DNA of 64,000 bases from NCBI RefSeq assembly GCF_000739995.1, contig NZ_BBJX01000001.1, positions 186,001 to 250,000 of the forward strand, written 5' to 3'. Shown here piece by piece: positions 2,754-16,552 of the stretch; the stretch's first letter is position 1; every line of letters starts with the position of its first letter. The stretch is from Comamonas granuli NBRC 101663 (GTDB lineage: Bacteria; Pseudomonadota; Gammaproteobacteria; Burkholderiales; Burkholderiaceae_C). The translations under genes were made by a program, and so were the position numbers. The notes beneath the pieces were generated by a model, which did no database searches, was not told the DNA's origin, and saw nothing but the letters and a program-made list of their open reading frames with translations.

Positions 2754-4130
2754 TCAGGGCTGCAGCCAGCCGTTCACTTCCACCACACTGGCCAGCCGGT
2801 CATCACCCGCCAGCGACTGCAGGCGCAAACGCGAGACCAGGTACACATACCGTGCCTGCGCCAGGTCGCGCAGCGCGGCGATGCGCTGCTGCTCGGCGTT
2901 GAGCACGTCCAGCGAGGTGCGCGACCCCGCCTCATAAGACTTGCGGCTCGACAGCACGGCCTGCTCGGCCGAGCGCACCGCCTGCTCCAGCGCCTTGATG
3001 CGCAGCACGCCCTCGGTCACGCCGCGGAATTCGCGGTACACGCGCACGCCCAGGTCGCGCCGCGTGGCTTCGAGCATCTCCTGCACGCGCGTCTGCGTGG
3101 CGACGGCCTGGCGCACGGTGGAGCTCACATACCCGCCGGAATAGAGCGGGATCGACAGCTGCAGGCCGAGGGTCTTGTTGTCGTAGCGTGAATTCACGCT
3201 GGTCACGGTATCGCTATTGGTCCTGGCCCACTGCGCCACCGCATCCAGGGTGGGCCGATGGCCTGCCTTGGCTTTCTCGATCTCCTGGCGTGCCGCTTCA
3301 AGCTGCGCTTGCAGGGATTGCAGTTCCGGACTGTGCTCTTCAGCGCGCGCGATCCACTCCTGCACCGAGGCAGGCACAGGCTCCTGGGGCACGAAGCGCG
3401 CGGCATCGACCCCGGCCAGCGCCTCCACCGGCTGGCCCGTCAAGGTCTCAAGGCGGTGGCGGGTATAGCTTTCGTTCTGGCGCGCCTCCAGCTCCTGGGC
3501 GACGGTCATGTCCAGCCGCGCCTGGGCGTCATCCACGTCGGTGCGCGTGCCCGATCCGGCAGCGAAGCCCTTGCGCGCCGCGTCGAGCTGCGTGGTGTAC
3601 GTGGCCTTTTGCGCCTGCACCAGCGCCACCTGCTCACGCGCCAGCAAGGCGTCGAAGTAGCTCTCCCCGACGCGCACCACCAGGCTCTGCTCGTCGCGCT
3701 CCAAGGTCGCATCGGCGTCCTGCACCTGTGCCTCGGCCTGCTTGAGCTGTGCCGTGAGATAGGGGCGGTACAGGGGCTGGCGCACCGACAGCACCTGGCT
3801 GCCCGACCAGTACTGTGTCTGGCTGGTGGTCGGCTGGCCGAGGAAGTTACGCCCCTCGCTGGTCAGGTCGTTGTAGTTGCGCCCGGCATTGAACGAGACA
3901 TTGGGGAGCAATTGAGAACGTGCCTGGGGCAGGCGCTCGCGCCCCGCCTCGGCGGCGGCGCGCGATGCACGGATGCTGGCATCGTTCTCCAGCGCAGCCT
4001 CGTAGGCCTGGCGCAAGTCCATGCCCCATGCGGAAGCTGCCAGCCCGGCCGCCAGCGCCGCCCCCACCAAGGCGCCCCGCAGGCGGCGGCCCGCCCCAGG
4101 CGCTGCATCACCATCGACGAAGAACACCAT
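2754..4130 (-). CDS. TolC-family outer membrane channel of the type I secretion system
   Basis: A 458-residue outer-membrane efflux protein that would form the trimeric exit duct for the ABC exporter and adaptor encoded immediately upstream. After a short charged start a hydrophobic signal region (ALVGAALAAGLAASAWG) leads to MDLRQAYEAALENDASIRAS, the classic start of a mature TolC/PrtF protein. The two repeated helical halves follow, with ALLAREQVALVQAQ and SYEAGSRTSLDVLNAEQQ, the latter being the hallmark G.RT..DVLNA motif. A strong ribosome-binding site (GGAGGAG) precedes the ATG at 4128-4130. It sits 3 bases after the stop of the HlyD-like gene, giving the order ABC-ABC-HlyD-TolC. Confidence 0.93.
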   Translation of the reverse strand: MVFFVDGDAAPGAGRRLRGALVGAALAAGLAASAWGMDLRQAYEAALENDASIRASRAAAEAGRERLPQARSQLLPNVSFNAGRNYNDLTSEGRNFLGQPTTSQTQYWSGSQVLSVRQPLYRPYLTAQLKQAEAQVQDADATLERDEQSLVVRVGESYFDALLAREQVALVQAQKATYTTQLDAARKGFAAGSGTRTDVDDAQARLDMTVAQELEARQNESYTRHRLETLTGQPVEALAGVDAARFVPQEPVPASVQEWIARAEEHSPELQSLQAQLEAARQEIEKAKAGHRPTLDAVAQWARTNSDTVTSVNSRYDNKTLGLQLSIPLYSGGYVSSTVRQAVATQTRVQEMLEATRRDLGVRVYREFRGVTEGVLRIKALEQAVRSAEQAVLSSRKSYEAGSRTSLDVLNAEQQRIAALRDLAQARYVYLVSRLRLQSLAGDDRLASVVEVNGWLQP

Positions 4131-4133
4131 GGT

Positions 4134-5504
4134 TCACTCCTCCTTCATCGAGGCCGACACGCGCTTGATCAGCGGATGCAGCAGATACGTCAGCATGGAA
4201 CGCTCGCCCGTCTTGAACACCACTTCCACCGGCATGCCCGGCTGCATGCGGCGCTTGCCCAGACCCTGGATGCCCTCGGGCGTGAGCTGCACGCGCGCCA
4301 GGTAGTAGCTGATGCCGGAGTGCGGGTCGGTGAGCAGGTCGCCCGATACCGACACCACCTGGCCCGCGACCACCAGTTGCGGCGAATGCGCGAAGGAGTT
4401 GAAACGCACGTCCACCGGCAGGTCGGCGTGCACGCGGTCGATCAGGTGCGGCGCCACCTGCACCTCCAGCAGCAAGGCCTCGTTGCCGGGCACGATGTCC
4501 ATGAGCTTCTGTCCCGGCGCAACGACGCCACCCACCGTCTGCACCGCCAGCCCCACGACCTGGCCAGCCGCCGGGGCCTTGATCTCGGTGCGCCCCAGAT
4601 CGTCGGACAAGGCCTTGAACTTCTGCTCCTCGGAGAGCACCTCGCGGCTCACGTCGGCCAGTTGCGTGTCCACCTCACGCCGGTAGTCCTGCTGGCGCGA
4701 GATGGCCCGCTGGCGCAGCTCGCCGATGGCGCGCTGGGCACGCACCGTATTGCCCTGGATGTCGGCGATCGCCGATCGCACGTCCGCCACCATGCGCTCG
4801 AGTTCCAGTTGCCGGTTGCGCGGCGCATAGCCTTCCTTGACCAGGCCGCGCAGATTGCCCAGCTCCTCGTCCACCAGCGCCAACTGGCTCTTGCGGTTGG
4901 TCAGCATGCCGGCATATGCCTCCAGCAGGCCCTGCTGCCCCTGGATGCTTTCCTCGATGGACTGCAGGTCCGAGCGCAGCAGGCTGCGCCGCGTCATGAA
5001 CAACTGCTCCTGGTTGAACATCTGCTGGCGGATCAGCGGATCCGCCGCCGCCTTCTCCAGGTCCGGGTGGAAACTGACCTTCGCCGCGCCGGTCTGCTCG
5101 GCCTGCAGGCGCCCCTGCATGGCGCGCAGCCCCAGGTAGCGCTGGCGCGCCGACTCGTAATTGGCGCGCGCCATGGCCTCGTCCAGGCGGATGAGCAACT
5201 GCCCCTCCTTCACCTCGGCGCCCTCGTGCACGAGCACTTCCTTCACGATGCCGCCGCTCAGGTGCTGGACCGCCTTGCGCTTGGTGTCCAGCGCGACGAG
5301 GCCCTGCCCCGGCACCCCTTCGTCCAGGGGCGCCAGGCCGGCCCACAGCAGAAAACCGCCAAAACCCACGGCCAGCGCCCACAGGCCGATGCGCCCCGCG
5401 CGCCGTGCCTCGCGCGCTCCGGAGGTATCCGCCGCGGCTGCACGCTCCGCGCCCTGGGCCAGACTGGCCTCGATGTTCTGAGAATTCATGAGTGGTGTAG
5501 CCAT
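4134..5504 (-). CDS. HlyD-family periplasmic adaptor of the type I secretion system
   Basis: A membrane-fusion protein of about 456 residues bridging the inner-membrane ABC exporter and the TolC-like channel. A roughly 35-residue cytoplasmic tail is followed by one membrane segment (IGLWALAVGFGGFLLWAGL). Next comes the biotinyl-lipoyl half motif around QHLSGGIVKEVLVHEGAEVK, then long coiled-coil helices (about residues 120-290). The second lipoyl half is APAAGQVVGLAVQTVGGVV, followed by the beta-barrel domain and the C-terminal GMPVEVVFKTGERS signature of PrtE/HlyD proteins. The ATG at 5502-5504 is preferred over an in-frame TTG 15 bases upstream; another ATG lies at 5487-5489. It lies 48 bases after the second ABC gene. 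Confidence 0.93.
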   Translation of the reverse strand: MATPLMNSQNIEASLAQGAERAAAADTSGAREARRAGRIGLWALAVGFGGFLLWAGLAPLDEGVPGQGLVALDTKRKAVQHLSGGIVKEVLVHEGAEVKEGQLLIRLDEAMARANYESARQRYLGLRAMQGRLQAEQTGAAKVSFHPDLEKAAADPLIRQQMFNQEQLFMTRRSLLRSDLQSIEESIQGQQGLLEAYAGMLTNRKSQLALVDEELGNLRGLVKEGYAPRNRQLELERMVADVRSAIADIQGNTVRAQRAIGELRQRAISRQQDYRREVDTQLADVSREVLSEEQKFKALSDDLGRTEIKAPAAGQVVGLAVQTVGGVVAPGQKLMDIVPGNEALLLEVQVAPHLIDRVHADLPVDVRFNSFAHSPQLVVAGQVVSVSGDLLTDPHSGISYYLARVQLTPEGIQGLGKRRMQPGMPVEVVFKTGERSMLTYLLHPLIKRVSASMKEE

Positions 5505-5552
5505 GATCCAACTCGGCAATCAAAAAATGTCAAAAAAGTCCAGTGGCGCAGC

Positions 5553-7292
5553 CTATGCAGGCTGGGCGGCTCCCAGCGCCCCGCCAGGCTGTGCCGGTGT
5601 CGGTGCCTGTGCCGTGCGCAGCGCCGCCAGCACCGCATCGCGCGGGCCGTCGGCCTGCACGCGCCCGTCGCGCAGGATCAGCAAGCGGTCGGCCACCGCC
5701 AGAATGCCCGGGCGGTGGGTGATCAGCACCACCGTCCTGCCTGCCGCCTTCAGGCCCTGCACCGAGCGCACCAGCGCCAGTTCGCCCACATCGTCCAGGT
5801 TGGCGTTGGGCTCGTCGAGCACCACCAGCACCGGATCGCCGTACACCGCCCGCGCCAGCCCGATGCGCTGGCGCTGCCCGCCCGACAGCAGGCCGCCCGC
5901 TTCGCCGATCGGCGTGTCGTAGCCCTTGGGAAAGCGCAGAATCATCTCGTGCAGACCGGCACTGCGTGCCGCGGCGATCACCTTCTCGGACTGGACCTCG
6001 CCAAAACGGGCGATGTTTTCGGCGATCGTGCCCTCGAACAGCTCGACGTCCTGCGGCAGATAGCCCAGGTAAGGCCCCAGCTCGGTACGGTCCCAGCCCT
6101 CGATGGGCAAGCCGTCGAGCAGCACCTCACCCGCCACATCGGGCCAGATGCCCACCATGGTGCGCGCCAGCGTGGATTTGCCCGACCCCGAAGGCCCGAG
6201 CACCACCGTCACCGTCCCGGGCTGCACGGCCAGGCTCACGCCTTGCAGGATGGGCGCCTTGCGCCCGGGCGCGGTGGCCACTACGTCGCGCAGCGTCAAT
6301 GCGCCCTGGGGCGCCACGCGCTTGAGCGCCGGATCGCGCGCCGGGTGCTCGCTCAGCAGGGCCTCCAGGCGCTCGAAGGCCGAACGGGCGCCAATGAAGG
6401 CACGCCACGTGCTCACCACCATGTCGATGGGCGCGAGTGCGCGCGACATCAGGATGTTGGAAGCAATCATGCCCCCGGGGGACAACTGCCCGTCGATCAC
6501 CAGCAGCGCCCCCGCGCCCAGCGCCAGGGACTGCTGCGAATAACGGATGAACTTGCTCCACGCCGTGATGCGGTGCGCCAGCGACTGGGAGGCCGACTGC
6601 AGCGCCAGCGCGCCCTCGTGGCGCTCCTGCCAGTGCGGACGCAGGTTGTGCACCATGCCCATGGACTCCAGCACCTCGGCATTGCGCAGCTTGCTCTGCA
6701 GATAGCCGCCCGCCTCGGACGCCGCCTTGCTCGCTGCCTCGGCAGGCGCCACGGTGCGGCGGTGGCCGAACCAGGCCAGCGCGAGCTGCACCAGTGCAAA
6801 GAATATCGAGAGCCAGCCCAGGAACGGGTGCATGAAGAACAGCACCGCAATGTAGATGGGCGCCCAGGGAACGTCAAAGAACGCAAAAATGCCGTTGCCC
6901 GTGAGGAACTGGCGGATCTGGATCAGGTCGCCAAAGGCGCGCGCCGGCCCGGTGCTCGACTGGCTCAGGTAGGCCTCGAAGCTGGCGTTGAACACGCGCG
7001 TGCCCAGCGCCTCGTCCAGGCGCACACCGGAGCGCACCAGCACGCGCGAGCGCATCCACTCGGAAAACGCCATCACGGCAAACAGGAACAGCGTGATCAG
7101 CGACATGGCCAGCAGGGTCAGCTCGCTGCGGCTCATGAGCACGCGGTCGTACACCTGCAGCATGTACAGCGTGGGCGTGAGCATGAGCACGTTGGCCACC
7201 ATGCTGAACGCGCCCACCATGATGAATTCGCGCCGGAAGGCCCACAGCACCTGCGTGAGCTCGCTGCGCTCGAAAAAGGAAGGATTTTTCAT
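5553..7292 (-). CDS. Type I secretion permease/ATPase (PrtD family), second of a tandem pair
   Basis: A 579-residue half-transporter. Six membrane helices occupy about residues 20-320, and the C-terminal nucleotide-binding domain is complete: Walker A GPSGSGKST, signature LLSGGQRQRIGLARA, Walker B VLVVLDEPNANLDD and a switch histidine in VVLITHRPGIL. It would power export of C-terminal-signal substrates directly from cytoplasm to outside. It starts 21 bases after the stop of the neighbouring ABC gene, with which it shares the family architecture but is clearly not identical. Both have intact ATPase sites, so either can be catalytic and together they could form a heterodimer. No N-terminal C39 peptidase or C39-like domain is seen, as expected for the PrtD type. 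Confidence 0.93.
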   Translation of the reverse strand: MKNPSFFERSELTQVLWAFRREFIMVGAFSMVANVLMLTPTLYMLQVYDRVLMSRSELTLLAMSLITLFLFAVMAFSEWMRSRVLVRSGVRLDEALGTRVFNASFEAYLSQSSTGPARAFGDLIQIRQFLTGNGIFAFFDVPWAPIYIAVLFFMHPFLGWLSIFFALVQLALAWFGHRRTVAPAEAASKAASEAGGYLQSKLRNAEVLESMGMVHNLRPHWQERHEGALALQSASQSLAHRITAWSKFIRYSQQSLALGAGALLVIDGQLSPGGMIASNILMSRALAPIDMVVSTWRAFIGARSAFERLEALLSEHPARDPALKRVAPQGALTLRDVVATAPGRKAPILQGVSLAVQPGTVTVVLGPSGSGKSTLARTMVGIWPDVAGEVLLDGLPIEGWDRTELGPYLGYLPQDVELFEGTIAENIARFGEVQSEKVIAAARSAGLHEMILRFPKGYDTPIGEAGGLLSGGQRQRIGLARAVYGDPVLVVLDEPNANLDDVGELALVRSVQGLKAAGRTVVLITHRPGILAVADRLLILRDGRVQADGPRDAVLAALRTAQAPTPAQPGGALGAAQPA

Positions 7293-7313
7293 GTTCTGAT
7301 TCCCGTGCCTGCC

Positions 7314-9077
7314 TCAGGCCGTGCCCAGCGCCTGCTGCGCCACCTGCTGCTGCGCCTGTTGCTGGGCTTGCTGCTGCGCTGCTTTCTGCAGGGCCGCCAG
7401 CACCTCGTCGCGCGGGCCGAAGGCCTGCGTCTGGCCGTCGCGCAGCACCAGCATCTTGTCCGCCACGGCCAGCACGCTGGTGCGGTGCGTCATCACGACG
7501 AAGGTCGTGCCGCGCGACTTCATGAGCCGGATGGCGTTGGCCAGTGCGGCATCGCCCTCCTCGTCCAGGCTGGAGTTGGGCTCGTCGAGCACCACGAACA
7601 CCGGGTCGCCATAAATGGCGCGCGCCAGGCCCACGCGCTGGCGCTGGCCGCCCGAGAGCATGGCGCCGTCGCGCCCCACCGGGCTGTCATAGCCCTGCGG
7701 CAGAGCCATGATGAACTCGTGCAGCCCCACGGCGCGCGCCGCTGCTTCCACCTTGGACTGATCCACCTCGCCGAAGCGCGCGATGTTCTCAGCCACCGTG
7801 CCATCGAAAAGTTCCACGCCCTGGGGCAGGTAGCCCACGTGCGCGCCCAGCTCCGATTTGTCCCAGGTGAACACGTCTGCGCCATCCAGGCGCACCTTGC
7901 CCACCATGGAAGGCCACAGCCCCATGAGCAGCCGCGCCAGCGTGGTCTTGCCCGAAGCCGAAGGTCCGACCACGGCCAGCACCTCGCCCGGGTTGAGCGC
8001 AAACGTCACGCCGCGCAGAATCTGCGCCGTGCCGCCCGGCGCGCCGGCCATCAGCGGTTCGACCTGGAGCGCGCCGCGCGGCGCGGGCAGCGGCATGCCC
8101 TCGCCGCGCTCGGGCACGGCGCGCAGCAACTGGTCCAGCCGCGCCCAGGCATCGCGCACATTCACCACCGACTGCCACTGCGATACCGCCTGCACCAGCG
8201 GGGCCACCACGCGCCCGCCGAACACCGAGGCCATGATCATCATCACATCACCGCCATTGAGCGTGCCGTGCAGCAGCAGCCAGCAGCCCAGCCCCAGCAG
8301 GCCCGAGCTCAGCGTGGTCTGCAGGAACTTCGATACCGCCTGGTAGCCGCCCGCCGCCTCGGAGGCCCGCGCCTGCAGGTTCAGGAACTCGCGCTGCTTG
8401 GCCATCCAGCGCGCATGGATGTCGCGCAGCATGCCCATGGACTCGATCACCTGCGCATTGCGCAGCGAACCATCGGCATATTGCTGCGCGGCAATGGCGC
8501 TGCGGTTGGCCTGCATCAGCGGCGGCTTGGTGGCGCGCTCGTTGAGCCAGGCCACCAGCGTGATCACGCAGGCAAACGCGATCGAGGTCCAGCCCAGCAC
8601 TGGATTGATGAGGAACAGCAGCACCAGCATGATCACCGACACCGGCGACTCCATCAGCCCCAGCAGCACCGGCGAATAGAGGAATTCGCGGATTTGCCGG
8701 AAGTCGTTCAGCGGCTGCTGCGTCCCGCCCGGAATGCGCCGCAGGTTGGCGTCGAAAATGGCATGGAAGACGCGCGAGCGCATGCGCTCGTCGAGCTCCA
8801 CGCTGGCGGCGCGCATGACCTCGCTGCGCGCCCATTCCAGCAGCTCCATGACCACGTACACGCCCAGGATCAGCAGCGTCAGCATGGCCAGCGTCGTGTG
8901 GCTGCGGCTGTTGACCACGCGGCCATACACCTCCAGCATGTAACCCGAGGGCGCGAGCACCAGCAGGCTGGACAGCAGGCTGAACCAGCCCACACGCACG
9001 AAATAAGGCCGCAGCGCGGCCACGGCCGCACGCAACTCGGACGGAGCCTGGTTCACGGCAGGGTTGGGAGCATTCAT
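7314..9077 (-). CDS. Type I secretion permease/ATPase (PrtD family), first of a tandem pair
   Basis: A 587-residue ABC exporter half with an N-terminal six-helix membrane domain (about residues 25-320) and an intact nucleotide-binding domain: Walker A GPSASGKTT, signature MLSGGQRQRVGLARA, Walker B VFVVLDEPNSSLDE and switch H in VVMTHRTS. The C-terminal tail, absent from its partner at 5553-7292, is unusually glutamine- and alanine-rich (QQQAQQQAQQQ, last 25 residues). Its ATG overlaps the stop of the small TnpB-like gene upstream (ATGA at 9074-9077), so that protein and the exporter are translationally coupled. It presumably pairs with the second ABC protein. Substrate is unknown, but the DUF4214 proteins nearby are the obvious candidates. 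Confidence 0.93.
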   Translation of the reverse strand: MNAPNPAVNQAPSELRAAVAALRPYFVRVGWFSLLSSLLVLAPSGYMLEVYGRVVNSRSHTTLAMLTLLILGVYVVMELLEWARSEVMRAASVELDERMRSRVFHAIFDANLRRIPGGTQQPLNDFRQIREFLYSPVLLGLMESPVSVIMLVLLFLINPVLGWTSIAFACVITLVAWLNERATKPPLMQANRSAIAAQQYADGSLRNAQVIESMGMLRDIHARWMAKQREFLNLQARASEAAGGYQAVSKFLQTTLSSGLLGLGCWLLLHGTLNGGDVMMIMASVFGGRVVAPLVQAVSQWQSVVNVRDAWARLDQLLRAVPERGEGMPLPAPRGALQVEPLMAGAPGGTAQILRGVTFALNPGEVLAVVGPSASGKTTLARLLMGLWPSMVGKVRLDGADVFTWDKSELGAHVGYLPQGVELFDGTVAENIARFGEVDQSKVEAAARAVGLHEFIMALPQGYDSPVGRDGAMLSGGQRQRVGLARAIYGDPVFVVLDEPNSSLDEEGDAALANAIRLMKSRGTTFVVMTHRTSVLAVADKMLVLRDGQTQAFGPRDEVLAALQKAAQQQAQQQAQQQVAQQALGTA

Positions 9078-9682
9078 ACGGTTTCTTCCACCATCACATA
9101 TTCAGGAATCTCGGCATCCCGGCCCTCCGCGGGGGCCGCGCCCTCCGGCGGCGCATCGGGATCCGCCAGGAAAAATGACAAGCCATACACGCCATCGGCA
9201 CCCCGCGCCAGCACGATCTCGCGCAGTTTGCGCTCGTGGAACAGCGCTTCGTCCTGGGCCTGCAGCGCCAACTGGAAGCGCATGCGCCCATCGAGGGTGA
9301 ACATGGACAACTGCCCCGCCTTCAGGCTCAGCGTATGGCGGTCGAAATACACCGGACAACTGTCCGCAAAGCGCAGCAGCGGCAGGGGCTTGTCCCCCAG
9401 CCGCGACAAATGAAAAGGGCTGGCCGGATGCTGGAACACCATGCGGCAGGTGCGCGAGACCGAATAGATGGCGTTGCACACCATCTGCGAGCCCATTTCG
9501 GGGAACTGCTCGCGCAACTGCCGGTAGGCCAGATGGTGCAAGGCCACCCGGTTCCACACCCGCGTCTGCTGCACCAGCGGCGCCAGGGCATTGCACACCC
9601 GGGCAAATCCTTGCTGCAAGGCCTGCAGGCGCGCCGCCTGCTCAGGCGATGCGTTCAAGGGGATGCGCAGCACGGAATTCAT
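9074..9682 (-). CDS. Unknown protein resembling the N-terminal part of IS605 OrfB/TnpB, no nuclease domain
   Basis: A protein of about 202 residues. From the ATG at 9680-9682 it begins MNSVLRIPLNASPEQAARL and continues with FARVCNALAPL and MGSQMVCNAIYSVSR. This order and spacing recall the helix-turn-helix start of IS605-type OrfB/TnpB transposon proteins (P....Q...L, then a CN core, then Q....A). The middle, from CPVYFDRHTLSLKAGQLSMF to GADGVYGLSFFL, resembles the beta-strand region that follows in TnpB. The RuvC nuclease and zinc finger that should come next are missing; the protein ends in an acidic tail. It is coupled to the exporter gene by ATGA and lies in the secretion operon, so a domesticated regulatory or RNA/DNA-binding role is possible. 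The family resemblance is my reading by eye and could be wrong. An in-frame start 75 bases upstream exists but lacks support. Confidence 0.6.
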   Translation of the reverse strand: MNSVLRIPLNASPEQAARLQALQQGFARVCNALAPLVQQTRVWNRVALHHLAYRQLREQFPEMGSQMVCNAIYSVSRTCRMVFQHPASPFHLSRLGDKPLPLLRFADSCPVYFDRHTLSLKAGQLSMFTLDGRMRFQLALQAQDEALFHERKLREIVLARGADGVYGLSFFLADPDAPPEGAAPAEGRDAEIPEYVMVEETV

Positions 9683-9714
9683 ATAGGACGCGCAGTGTAT
9701 CAAACTCCTATATG
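9678..9714. promoter_or_regulatory. Inverted repeat over the start of the TnpB-like gene
   Basis: The arms CATATAGGA (9680-9688) and TCCTATATG (9706-9714) are perfect 9-base inverted repeats separated by 17 bases. The left arm contains the start codon of the TnpB-like gene. Similarity continues outward (GAATT against AAATTC) with a one-base shift. It could be an operator for the secretion operon, an RNA hairpin hiding the start codon, or the relic of a mobile-element end. The sequence alone cannot separate these. Confidence 0.4.
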
Positions 9715-9763
9715 AAATTCCTGCGAGATTTGGCTGCGTGACAAATAAACCACACACGCCTGG

Positions 9764-11064: not shown

Positions 11065-12627
11065 TCAGCCGCCCAGGACCGGGTCCAGCGGCACGGGCAG
11101 GGTGCCCACCAGCGAAGCATTCCAGGAGCCATCCAGGTGCGCCACATGGAAAATCTCCTGCGGGCCCGCCACCCCATCGGTCACCTGCGTCACATCAGTG
11201 TTGTTCAGGATCAGCCACACGTCGGCGCTGTTGCGCGTATCGGCCGTGATGACCACCGACTTGTTCACCTGCGCAGGCTGGCGGAACAGCTTGCCCGGAC
11301 CGAACAGCGCCAGCACATCGGCCGCGGTGGCCGCGCGCGACACCAAGGATGCGCCCGAGCCGCTCACCCAGGCGCCATTGTTCTCCACCAGCACCACCGC
11401 GCCATTGGCCAGGACCAAGCCCGGTGCATCGGTGGCCAGCCGTGCCGTCAGAGCAGAAATATCCACCGACTTGTTGAGCAGCCGCGAAAAATCCAACTGG
11501 TCCTTGCCCTCACCAAAATCCGTGATGGTGACCGGCGCACCGCCCGCCTGGTACACCGTGCTGTCCGGCAGAACGAAGCGGTCGTCCCCCAGCCCGCCGG
11601 TCGCCGTATCCCGCCCGCCCGTGAAGAAGATCGTGTCCGCACCGGCAGAGCCCAGCCAGCGATCAGCCTGCGCCGTCCCCAGCAAGGTCGACCCGCCCAC
11701 CGGCGCCGTCACCGACACGGCCTGCGACGGCCCGGCGGTGAACACCAGCTTGCCCTTGCCTACGGCATCGCCAGCATCGATGCTGGTAACCCCGCGCGCC
11801 ATCTCGGCATTGAAATCCACCACCGAGCCTGACAGCCCTCCATCCAGGCTGTAGAACACCTTGAAGGCCGCCTTGCCCGCGAGCGTGTACCGGCCCAGTG
11901 CGGCATTCCACACCAGATCGCCCGCCAGGTCGCCATACAGCCTGACGGCGTTGCCCTGGCGGTAGAACGCCAGCTCCCCGCCCGTGGCAGACAGCCCCCC
12001 GGCCGCCAGTGCGGCGATGATGCGGCCATCCGTCGTTGCAGGTTGCGTCGCCAGCTCTGCCACTGACGCTTCGCGGCCCGCGCCCGCCAGGTACAGCAGC
12101 GCCGTCTCCACCCGGTCGGGCGGCGCCGTGGCCAGCGACGGCAGGCCGGAGACCACCGCCAGCATCTGCGCGCGGGACAGCCCGGCGTCGAGCAAATCCG
12201 TCAATTGCTGCGCCAGCACGGGGCTGAAGGCCCCCAGCGCACGCCCGAGCAGGGCCGAAACAAAATCACCATGGCGCGGATAACCGGCGTCGCTCAAGGC
12301 AAACCCCGGCACCCCCAGCACAATGCCGGCCAGATCCGCCAGCGTGCTCCCGCCGCGCAGCATGTCCATCATGGTGCCAAACAGCGGCGCATCCGGCGCA
12401 CGGTTGAACGCCAGGAAAAACATGCGCACCAGCTCGTCCGCCGGGCTTTCCTGCATCACCGTGGCCGAGGTGTACAGCGTCTTGAGCACCTCGCCATACG
12501 TTGCGGTGCCGCTATCGACCCGCTGCGCCAGGACGGAGAGCATGACGGGTGACGGCTGCTGCAGCGACAGCGCCTTGTAGAACCGCGTGACCGTATCGAG
12601 CGATGAGGGGGTAGTGGACTTGACCAT
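11065..12627 (-). CDS. DUF4214/RTX-like protein, probable substrate of the type I secretion system
   Basis: A 520-residue protein with no N-terminal signal peptide, as expected for a type I substrate. Residues about 30-150 carry the helical DUF4214-like unit (MFFLAFNRAPDAPLFGTMMD, then GVPGFALSDAG). The middle is beta-rich. The segment DRWLGSAGADTIFFTGG to GGLGDDRFVLPDSTVYQ resembles degenerate RTX calcium-binding nonapeptides, followed by ITDFGEGKDQLDFSRL, the post-RTX strand seen in haemolysin-type proteins. It is Asp/Gly/Ala-rich and poor in Cys. The genes on either side encode a glycosyltransferase and two small unknown proteins, with the exporter operon just downstream. Its role after export (adhesin, matrix or surface-layer protein) cannot be told. 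Confidence 0.8.
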   Translation of the reverse strand: MVKSTTPSSLDTVTRFYKALSLQQPSPVMLSVLAQRVDSGTATYGEVLKTLYTSATVMQESPADELVRMFFLAFNRAPDAPLFGTMMDMLRGGSTLADLAGIVLGVPGFALSDAGYPRHGDFVSALLGRALGAFSPVLAQQLTDLLDAGLSRAQMLAVVSGLPSLATAPPDRVETALLYLAGAGREASVAELATQPATTDGRIIAALAAGGLSATGGELAFYRQGNAVRLYGDLAGDLVWNAALGRYTLAGKAAFKVFYSLDGGLSGSVVDFNAEMARGVTSIDAGDAVGKGKLVFTAGPSQAVSVTAPVGGSTLLGTAQADRWLGSAGADTIFFTGGRDTATGGLGDDRFVLPDSTVYQAGGAPVTITDFGEGKDQLDFSRLLNKSVDISALTARLATDAPGLVLANGAVVLVENNGAWVSGSGASLVSRAATAADVLALFGPGKLFRQPAQVNKSVVITADTRNSADVWLILNNTDVTQVTDGVAGPQEIFHVAHLDGSWNASLVGTLPVPLDPVLGG

Positions 12628-12734: not shown

Positions 12735-13271
12735 TCAGTGGAGGGCGCCCGCCTGCGGCGCCCCCGCGCCGCCGCCCGCCTCCGCCAGCCAGGCGGGCCA
12801 GGGCTCCATGGGCCAGGGCGCCTGGCGCCAGGCATGGCAAACAATGCCCAGCCACTGGCGCAAGGCCTGCGCTGGCATGGCCATGGCCGCCACCGGCCCC
12901 TGGTTGCCCAGGAATACCAGCCGCACCCCGGCAGGCCCGTGGGCCAGGTCAATCGATTCCACCAGCCACTCGGGGCTGGCAGCCTGCGCCGCCACGGGGG
13001 CCTGCGGCTCCAGGCCCGCACAAGCAGCCTGCTGGGCGAACCCCTGCAGCGTGCCGGCGTACAGATGCTGCAGCGGCTCGTGCTGTTGCGGCGCATCGTG
13101 CTCCTGCAGCCAGGCCAGCAAGGGCGGCAACAGGCGCAGCAGCAGGCGCTGTGTCAGCCACAGCACCACCGGCAGGCCCTGTGGCAGCTCGCCCGCCAGC
13201 GAGAAACGGTCCTGCACCCTGTCGTAGCGGGTGGTGACACGCGCCATCTCCGGCACCATGCCACCGCCCAT
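12735..13271 (-). CDS. Hypothetical protein of the secretion locus
   Basis: A 178-residue protein that I do not recognise. It starts MGGGMVPEMARVTTRYDRVQD and has a leucine-rich amphipathic stretch (VVLWLTQRLLLRLLPPLLAWL, about residues 38-58) that looks more like a helix packing surface than a membrane anchor because of its arginines. It ends in a Gly/Ala-rich tail. No signal peptide, cysteine pattern or enzyme motif is visible. It follows the small protein at 13274-13483 with only 2 bases between, so the two are certainly co-transcribed and may act together, for example as a chaperone or assembly factor for the secreted proteins. Start could also be one of two nearby in-frame ATGs. Confidence 0.65.
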   Translation of the reverse strand: MGGGMVPEMARVTTRYDRVQDRFSLAGELPQGLPVVLWLTQRLLLRLLPPLLAWLQEHDAPQQHEPLQHLYAGTLQGFAQQAACAGLEPQAPVAAQAASPEWLVESIDLAHGPAGVRLVFLGNQGPVAAMAMPAQALRQWLGIVCHAWRQAPWPMEPWPAWLAEAGGGAGAPQAGALH

Positions 13272-14848: not shown

Positions 14849-16552
14849 TTAAAGCGGGGTGTATTCCAGCCCTCTGGTCTGCAGCCCCACCAAATCGATA
14901 TGTTGCTGGTGCACCGGTGATTCTGCGACGATCCGGAACATCTCGGCCCGGGAGAGCAAACCGCCATCCAGGTAGCCCGCCAGCGCCGCTTGCGTGGCCT
15001 CCGAGGGCGGCGTGCCGACGGCATTTTGGTAGATATAGTGCACGAAGGACGCATTGTCGGCACCCCCCGCCCACTGCGCCAGCACCCCGCTGTCCACCAG
15101 CAGTTGCGCCGCTTGCACCAGTGACGGGCCGCCGTCGAAATAAGCCACCAGCGCGCCCACCAGCGCCATATTGCCCAAGGCCTGCGGCCCCAGTGCCACG
15201 CCGAGCAAGAGACTGGCCCGGCCTGCTGGCTCGTCCTTCTGCAAGTCCAGGGCCAGTACCCGGTCGGTGAACACCAGGCGCTCGACATCGGCCAGCGTGT
15301 CCTGCCCGTCGCGGCCTGGCACGGAGTCGGTGAGCGACCACCGCCCTCCAGCGAGCGCTGTCACGGCATAGTGGCTGCGCGGGCCATGCAGAATCCACCG
15401 GTCCGTTCCGGCGCCTGCCTCGAACCATTCGTTGGCTGCGCTGCTGGCGGCGGTATCGCCCTGGGCCGTCCCCGCCACCAGCGTTTCCGCCACGGGGGAC
15501 AGCCGCACGGCATAGGTCCCTGCGGTGCCTGCCGGGCTGGTGGACGGCGCGCTCACCGCCACGTAGTAGCTGCCGGGGCGCACTACGGCGCATTCCAGCA
15601 AGGCATTGAAGCCGGCGCCCGAATCGTCGTCCTGCGCGAGCAGCGAACCATCGGCGGCATAGAGGGACACCATGGGATCGCCCAGCGTGCCCTGCTGCGT
15701 GCTCGCACCCTGCACGTCGAAAGCATAGACCCCCGTGGTCAGATCCACCCGGAACCAGTCCACATCGCCCACCCGCTCCAGCCTGGCCGCCAGCGTGGTG
15801 TTCAGCGAAAGCGCCCCGGACGCCTGCGCGCTGGCCCCATGGTCGTCGGGCCATTGCGCGGTGCCGGACACCAGATCGTCATTGCCGACCAGGGCACGCA
15901 AAAACCACTCCCAGGTGCCATTGCCATGCAGCCCGGCATACGTGGAGTGGTTGTTTGCGGTACTGCCTGAAGAGAGCACGCCCACCACATCGACACCGCC
16001 CTGGGGGAACCATTGCAGCAAGGGGCCGCCGGATGCTCCCGCCCCCAGCAGGGACGGGATCTCGAAAACGCCGTAGCTGGATGAAGGCACGGCATAGACC
16101 TGTTCCGCCATCATGCCGGTACCCCTGGCGGGGTAGCCCACCATCAGCCCGCTGGCGCCGGCCACCGCCGGGGCAGCGTGCACCCACCCCGTGGCATCTC
16201 CGATGCGCGACTGCAGGCCGATGAGCGCCAGGTCCCATTGGGCCTCGGCCGTGGTGACCAGGCCGTCGCCATCGCGGTCCCAATCCTGGGTGCGAGCGTC
16301 GATTTCTCCCCAATCGGCGTAGGCGCCCAGGGGCTGCTGCAGCGTGGGCCAGGTGTCTGCGGCGGGGCTGATGAGAATATCGCTTGCCCAGCCGCCCCGG
16401 CTGGCGTCGTAGACGACGTGCATGGCCGTGAGCACGTCGTTGACTCCCACCACCACCCCCGAGGCAGAGGTGCGCGAGCCATCCACCCAGGTGCATTCGA
16501 TATAGCAAATGGCCCGGTAGGGTGCTTCTGTGCGTTGGGTGATTTCGTACAT
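14849..16552 (-). CDS. Trypsin-like serine protease with pre-peptidase and DUF4214 domains, probable type I secretion substrate
   Basis: A 567-residue protein without an N-terminal signal peptide. Residues about 10-225 form a chymotrypsin-fold protease with a full triad: His45 in LTAMHVVY, Asp107 in WDLALIGL and Ser174 in GAGASGGPLL. An EF-hand-like loop DWDRDGDGLVTTAE (about 90-103) sits inside the protease domain. Residues about 245-355 form a pre-peptidase C-terminal (PPC) domain (GDVDWFRVDL, GSYYVAVSA). A beta-rich segment follows, then a C-terminal DUF4214 unit (LAQWAGGADNASFVHYIYQNA, GYLDGGLLSRAEMFRIVAES). Absence of a Sec signal, the DUF4214 end and the neighbouring exporter support secretion by that exporter. 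It could process the S-layer-like protein or host proteins. Confidence 0.85.
   Translation of the reverse strand: MYEITQRTEAPYRAICYIECTWVDGSRTSASGVVVGVNDVLTAMHVVYDASRGGWASDILISPAADTWPTLQQPLGAYADWGEIDARTQDWDRDGDGLVTTAEAQWDLALIGLQSRIGDATGWVHAAPAVAGASGLMVGYPARGTGMMAEQVYAVPSSSYGVFEIPSLLGAGASGGPLLQWFPQGGVDVVGVLSSGSTANNHSTYAGLHGNGTWEWFLRALVGNDDLVSGTAQWPDDHGASAQASGALSLNTTLAARLERVGDVDWFRVDLTTGVYAFDVQGASTQQGTLGDPMVSLYAADGSLLAQDDDSGAGFNALLECAVVRPGSYYVAVSAPSTSPAGTAGTYAVRLSPVAETLVAGTAQGDTAASSAANEWFEAGAGTDRWILHGPRSHYAVTALAGGRWSLTDSVPGRDGQDTLADVERLVFTDRVLALDLQKDEPAGRASLLLGVALGPQALGNMALVGALVAYFDGGPSLVQAAQLLVDSGVLAQWAGGADNASFVHYIYQNAVGTPPSEATQAALAGYLDGGLLSRAEMFRIVAESPVHQQHIDLVGLQTRGLEYTPL

Follow-up and report, generated by a model that had tools for sequence, protein, structure and literature searches.

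What does one half of a transposon nuclease do when it is kept in a fixed place before a set of secretion genes? The question is raised by a 64,000-nucleotide stretch of the genome of Comamonas granuli NBRC 101663 (contig NZ_BBJX01000001.1, positions 186,001 to 250,000; hereafter the window, with positions counted from its first letter). On the minus strand of this window, and on that strand only, an open reading frame (ORF) at 9074-9682 (ATG at 9682, stop at 9074-9076) encodes a TnpB-derived protein of 202 residues that consists of the REC and WED domains alone, with no RuvC domain. Its stop codon overlaps, in an ATGA, the start of the first ATPase of a type I exporter. Our answer, to which we assign a probability of about 0.68, is that the protein is a guide-free autoregulator derived from TnpB, which reads an operator resembling a target-adjacent motif (TAM) and so acts as a repressor on the promoter from which it is itself expressed.

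The ORF is a real gene. A genome scan found the TnpB-derived protein encoded in 50 loci elsewhere, at 55-85% identity in the best segment; the source records mostly name Comamonadaceae genera, with Thauera and others in addition. Five pairs of the gene gave a nonsynonymous divergence (dN) of 0.07-0.27 and a synonymous divergence (dS) of 0.85-1.5, and from the resulting dN/dS of about 0.07-0.21 we conclude that it is under purifying selection. All counts in this work are of loci and not of independent events: L039 and L105 (and L055, L130) are one locus, the cores of L004/L005 and of L009/L010 are identical, and those of L013/L049 and of L040/L044 nearly so.

The sequence-only reading had noticed, by eye, a resemblance to TnpB, and this resemblance is true homology. 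Sequence profile and predicted structure both identify the protein as a homologue of the REC/WED half of TnpB and a member of the TnpB/Cas12 superfamily. When a family profile (A1, 38 members) was applied to 399 genomes of the order, 17 had matches, full-length TnpBs among them, with per-genome E-values of 8e-39 (L063), 4e-24 (L065), 2e-16 (L066) and 1e-6 (L068). The L063 TnpB has the RuvC motifs GVDIGE, EDLTH and HADVN, and zinc-finger cysteines are present in the matched TnpBs. Re-fetched as L097, L087, L094 and L102, the same four TnpBs all passed the PF07282 cut-off and three of the four passed that of PF01385. In the reverse direction, a 329-residue TnpB query, without the last 67 residues of its ORF, had a single match in the C. 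granuli genome, the 202-residue gene (41% identity over 162 residues, E 4e-31), with no second TnpB relative at E <= 0.01. A RuvC partner supplied in trans was considered and rejected, as this query matched only the 202-residue gene. Origin from an unrelated family was likewise rejected: the protein matches no Pfam family, its NCBIfam, Pfam-member and PHROGs matches are at chance level at most, and the profile retrieved TnpBs instead. Searches of PDB sequences with the single protein or with its own family profile returned nothing at E <= 10, and PDB relatives were reached only by fold comparison and by a joint profile with TnpBs.

The AlphaFold2 model of the protein (mean predicted local distance difference test score 88.9) has one strand, three long helices and further strands. 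Comparison of a predicted structure with those of TnpB had been proposed as a check, and in Foldseek against the PDB each of the top 30 matches is a Cas12f, a TnpB, a Fanzor or another relative of Cas12, the best being AsCas12f (E 4.3e-6, TMq 0.61), with ISDra2 TnpB at rank 11 (E 1.4e-4). When aligned jointly with full TnpBs, the 202-residue family ends just before the GVDIGE-type motif of RuvC. The RuvC domain with its acidic residues is therefore absent, as had been stated, and so is the zinc-finger/TNB domain, which is present in the four TnpB relatives. The N-terminal part had been taken for the helix-turn-helix of TnpB; the TnpB origin stands, and the part corresponds to the REC region and not to a plain helix-turn-helix. 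A tree of 54 rows places 46 exporter-linked proteins in one group (99/97) adjoining TnpBs of the L063/L064 type, with a midpoint root, a bootstrap that had not settled and some long branches. Two short ORFs from two other genomes, at 1477-1734 of L069 (plus strand) and in the 340-1722 frame of L070 (minus strand), align with no more than the REC part of the profile (E 2e-8 and 6e-6, respectively); they may be REC-only remnants or members of a small related family.

The neighbourhood of the gene is conserved. A survey of homologues, also proposed earlier, found the gene for the first exporter ATPase (ATPase 1) directly downstream in 48 of the 50 loci, with a second ATPase and HlyD also present wherever the contig is long enough; at the remaining two, L021 and L033, the contig ends at or just past the TnpB-derived gene. 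Exporter genes are directly downstream in all nine of nine further loci from other genomes, and L104 and L111 have one adjacent ATPase rather than two. Profile, structure, tree and neighbourhood thus agree in supporting the capture of the N-terminal half of a TnpB, without its nuclease, into a secretion operon, and the ATGA junction reported with it is confirmed.

The sequence-only reading gave no strand for the ORF and missed an inverted repeat (9678-9716) at the promoter of the TnpB-derived gene, which reads, in gene order, TTCATATAGGA, then the -10-like hexamer TACACT, then TCCTATATGAA. The first candidate operator box, TTCATATAGGA on the minus strand (9706-9716), is upstream of the -10 element; the second (9678-9688), which is TTCATATAGGA on the plus strand and TCCTATATGAA in the sense of the gene, overlaps the ATG. 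Between them the hexamer (minus strand, 9694-9699, position counted from the ATG) is preceded by TGA, as in the extended -10 type. This 3.5-Mb genome contains exactly two exact copies of the box, both at this promoter. A regulon elsewhere in the genome was considered and rejected, the only other candidate being a single site with one mismatch; genome-wide there are 123 sites that differ from the box at no more than two positions, against 86 for a reversed-pattern control, and these were taken as noise.

In a blind count of all 11-mers, the box was the only one to occur in all 31 of the loci of at least 15 kb; the runner-up occurred in 24. Scanning of 59 loci (without L050, in which the contig begins inside the gene) found at least one exact box within 150 bp in 51 and a box with at most one mismatch in 56. 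L109, L110 and L112 have no such copy within this distance. L110 and L112 instead have two direct copies, 16 bp apart and about 1.5-2.2 kb upstream of the TnpB-derived gene, which stand before a tolC-like gene that precedes it; the boxes are therefore not mere followers of a start codon. These four copies are the only exact boxes outside that distance in 978 kb of these loci. The boxes are arranged convergently, divergently or directly. Among 104 sites in 51 loci, a sample conditional on no more than two mismatches, positions 2-6 and 8 are invariant, 1 and 7 rarely vary and 9 is the most variable. All 49 loci scored (L047 was left out) have a TAnnnT hexamer between -24 and -4, compared with 14 expected from mononucleotide shuffles, and 19 have the extended form TGnTAnnnT, compared with 0.9.

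Box and gene occur together across genomes as well. Exact convergent pairs (spacer 8-30) were found in three of the 399 genomes and exact direct pairs (spacer 2-32) in another three, and all six carry the gene. Such pairs are thus present in 6 of the 9 genomes with the gene and in none of the 390 that lack it (Fisher 1.6e-11), a figure that covers convergent and direct pairs and not divergent ones. The nine gene-bearing genomes (G000, G599, G369, G461, G501, G506, G605, G635 and G672) were sorted from the 17 with profile matches; in the eight besides G000 exporter genes are directly downstream, and the other eight of the 17 hold TnpB-like genes, fragments or short ORFs in other contexts. As for the carriers without an exact pair, G605 has one exact copy and one with a single mismatch, G635 has a single palindromic copy with one mismatch and G506 has none. 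Relatives of ATPase 1 within the family were surveyed in 200 genomes, 46 of which had matches, and 30 loci among the matches listed were examined, that of the window included. Seventeen have the TnpB-derived gene, one of them cut at a contig end. The exact box is present in 14 of the 16 evaluable gene-bearing loci and in 0 of 13 gene-less loci (Fisher 1.8e-6); the two gene-bearing exceptions, L125 and L128, have variants of the TTCATATATG type. In L123 (1300-1530), as read from the DNA, only the two ends of the TnpB-derived gene are left before the exporter ATPase gene, and the boxes are decayed, with 3 and 2 mismatches; a TAGAAT hexamer is retained.

The box has a counterpart in the elements to which the protein is related. 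Of 13 copies of related TnpB elements in three genomes, 11 start TTCAT|AGAA after variable flanks (G386, 6/7; G514, 2/3; G459, 3/3); of the other two, the one in G386 is without this end and the one in G514 has N at this place. IS200/IS605 elements have their TAM at this end, and TTCAT is presumably the TAM of the related elements. The box, too, opens with TTCAT. According to PMC10097598, the TAM of ISDra2 TnpB is TTGAT; WED binds both nucleic acids there, sharing the TAM duplex with REC and the RNA scaffold with RuvC.

The ends of the related elements also carry a conserved GTAAAC...GTTTAC scaffold, which was made into a covariance model (R1). R1 matches all four of four TnpB genomes, including G459, which was outside model building; with at most 150 candidates scored per genome, it detected no such scaffold in 10 of 10 carrier genomes (this genome and nine others). 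Among 42 selected sources scanned, R1 found no scaffold in the 36 window and exporter loci; of the other sources, the model recognises L087, L094, L096 and L097 but neither L098 nor L102. A search able to detect R1-like scaffolds or strictly conserved 11-mers found no guide RNA encoded beside the TnpB-derived gene. The earlier description of the protein as a guide-RNA-binding module is accordingly not upheld by this search for scaffolds like those of the related TnpBs. In G386 there are 35 R1 scaffold matches and 7 TnpB profile matches, which suggests many short non-coding copies of the TnpB element.

In the explanation that we prefer, the protein is a domesticated TnpB that has lost RuvC and the zinc finger; what it retains, REC and WED, is the part of TnpB that binds the TAM duplex. 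The REC/WED protein would bind TTCATATAGGA directly, with no guide RNA, and would then repress, rather than activate, the promoter of its own operon: box 1 is just upstream of the -10-like element and box 2 would span the likely transcription start. By way of the ATGA translational coupling, the protein may serve as a negative-feedback gauge of exporter synthesis. A conserved candidate operator at its own promoter, co-occurring with the gene, is what an autoregulatory DNA-binding repressor should have, and we infer that the protein binds the box. It is probably an autoregulator free of guide RNA, and these observations suggest that the DNA-reading part of TnpB has been turned into an ordinary switch for the exporter. 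Of the two functions that the sequence-only reading had offered, a regulator gains indirect support from the operator-like box that accompanies the gene; an mRNA-binding factor does not, because the geometry of the box points to DNA. The odds lean slightly towards a more general proposition, that REC/WED modules freed of nuclease and guide constitute a new class of protein-only, sequence-specific transcription factors whose operator has kept at its start TTCAT, the target motif of related TnpB transposons.

Several observations weigh against this explanation. In L109 the exact box is missing from the whole of the 14.9 kb, and several of the 59 loci have a single box or variants. Just three of the 13 gene-less exporters (L121, L123 and L131) are at least 55% identical to ATPase 1, so that this control consists in part of distant relatives; the remainder, at 46-51%, may be paralogues. 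The match to TTCAT would arise by chance in about 1% of cases, as estimated over all pentamers of the box, and L063/L097, the closest single TnpB, is present in one copy whose start is not fixable and may read GTCAT. An asymmetric box of 11 bp is long for a cleft that contacts a TAM of 5 bp, and its last six bases equal the TldR seed in length. The ceiling on candidates scored in the scaffold search counts on the same side. Finally, the lysine/arginine content of the protein (11.9%) is only modestly below that of TnpBs (13.9-16.8%), so that it may still bind RNA.

It is also conceivable, if unlikely, that the box belongs to another transcription factor, whose gene lies elsewhere, and that the TnpB-derived protein is an accessory or RNA-binding component of the exporter system. 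DNA binding by the latter is, after all, what we infer, and an operator common to orthologous operons would look alike. However, the exact box is missing from all 13 gene-less exporter loci, though most are distant; a general factor usually has other sites, whereas one single-mismatch site is all that this genome offers besides the promoter; and the TTCAT at the end of the box matches the start of related TnpB elements.

We hold it to be distinctly improbable that the protein is a TldR-like RNA-guided repressor, for which TTCAT would be the TAM and a short trans-encoded guide (AUAGGA seed) would pair with the next six bases. The box does divide into a TAM-like part of 5 bp and a further 6 bp, the TldR seed being nucleotides 1-6 according to PMC13418256, and all box orientations are used, as expected of single units of TAM plus seed. 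On the other hand, the RNA scaffold of TnpB is held between WED and RuvC, and the protein has lost the latter. The ten carriers are all without a scaffold of the related TnpB type, although a guide could have another form or lie far away, no other 11-mer is common to all 31 long loci, and the six bases are nearly constant across families, where guides could drift. Translational autoregulation on an mRNA hairpin formed by the inverted repeat can be largely dismissed: a convergent pair could give a hairpin that has the start codon in one of its arms, but the -10-like hexamer found in every locus scored sits between the arms of convergent pairs, so that the left arm should not be transcribed, and direct and divergent pairs cannot form such a hairpin.

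The promoter box accompanying the RuvC-less TnpB gene is new here. In searches of one open-access library, to which any claim of novelty is confined, we found no RuvC-less TnpB regulator and no relevant link between TnpB and type I secretion; to our knowledge, the known domesticated TnpBs (TldR and the Cas12 types) retain the RNA-guided principle. Across Comamonadaceae, Thauera and other Burkholderiales, a TAM-like element has been kept at the promoter region while the nuclease half is gone. If binding is confirmed, recognition of the TAM as in Cas12 can stand alone as a DNA-binding domain, a DNA reader of roughly 200 residues that needs no RNA becomes available for study, and there is a second route, besides TldR, from transposon nuclease to regulator. 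The protein is at the same time a candidate regulator for this type I exporter.

The exporter itself is encoded on the minus strand by two ATPase/permease genes, the first at 7314-9077 (PF00005 and PF00664), whose start provides the ATGA overlap, and the second at 5553-7292, and by a gene for an HlyD-type membrane fusion protein at 4134-5519 (PF13437; start codon uncertain). Antisense to this operon there is an open frame of 2051 residues (3258-9413, plus strand), probably a by-product of the high G+C coding sequence. A 178-residue protein without a Pfam match (12735-13271, minus strand) has relatives upstream of several exporter loci; one is the ORF at 9649-10119 of L110, between the tolC-like and TnpB-like genes (30% identity, E 4e-15). 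Two further minus-strand proteins (11065-12627 and 14849-16552) resemble type I secretion substrates by eye; the former has no Pfam match and the latter a weak PPC-domain match below the cut-off.

The protein shares with the TnpBs of IS200/IS605 elements, such as ISDra2 TnpB, the fold and sequence of REC and WED, and with related elements the adjoining TTCAT. Unlike them, it has no RuvC, no zinc finger/TNB and no detected guide scaffold, and it stands in a fixed position before exporter genes with no sign of a mobile element. Cas12f and dCas12f are the best structural matches of the model but have RuvC and a guide RNA, and no PDB chain matches the sequence profile of the 202-residue family. 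The nearest known kind is TldR, likewise a domesticated, nuclease-inactive TnpB linked to non-transposon host genes, with promoter repression proposed. TldRs, as described in PMC13418256, have an inactivated RuvC and a neighbouring guide RNA; here the whole RuvC domain is missing and no guide scaffold was found, and since the protein fails on both counts we do not class it as a TldR. In its layout the locus is like those of classical autoregulatory repressors as generally known, with the gene in an operon behind its operator, the operator over the promoter and a regulon of a single site. It differs from them in that the DNA-reading module is derived from TnpB and not from a helix-turn-helix family, and in that an asymmetric box is used in convergent, divergent and direct arrangement.
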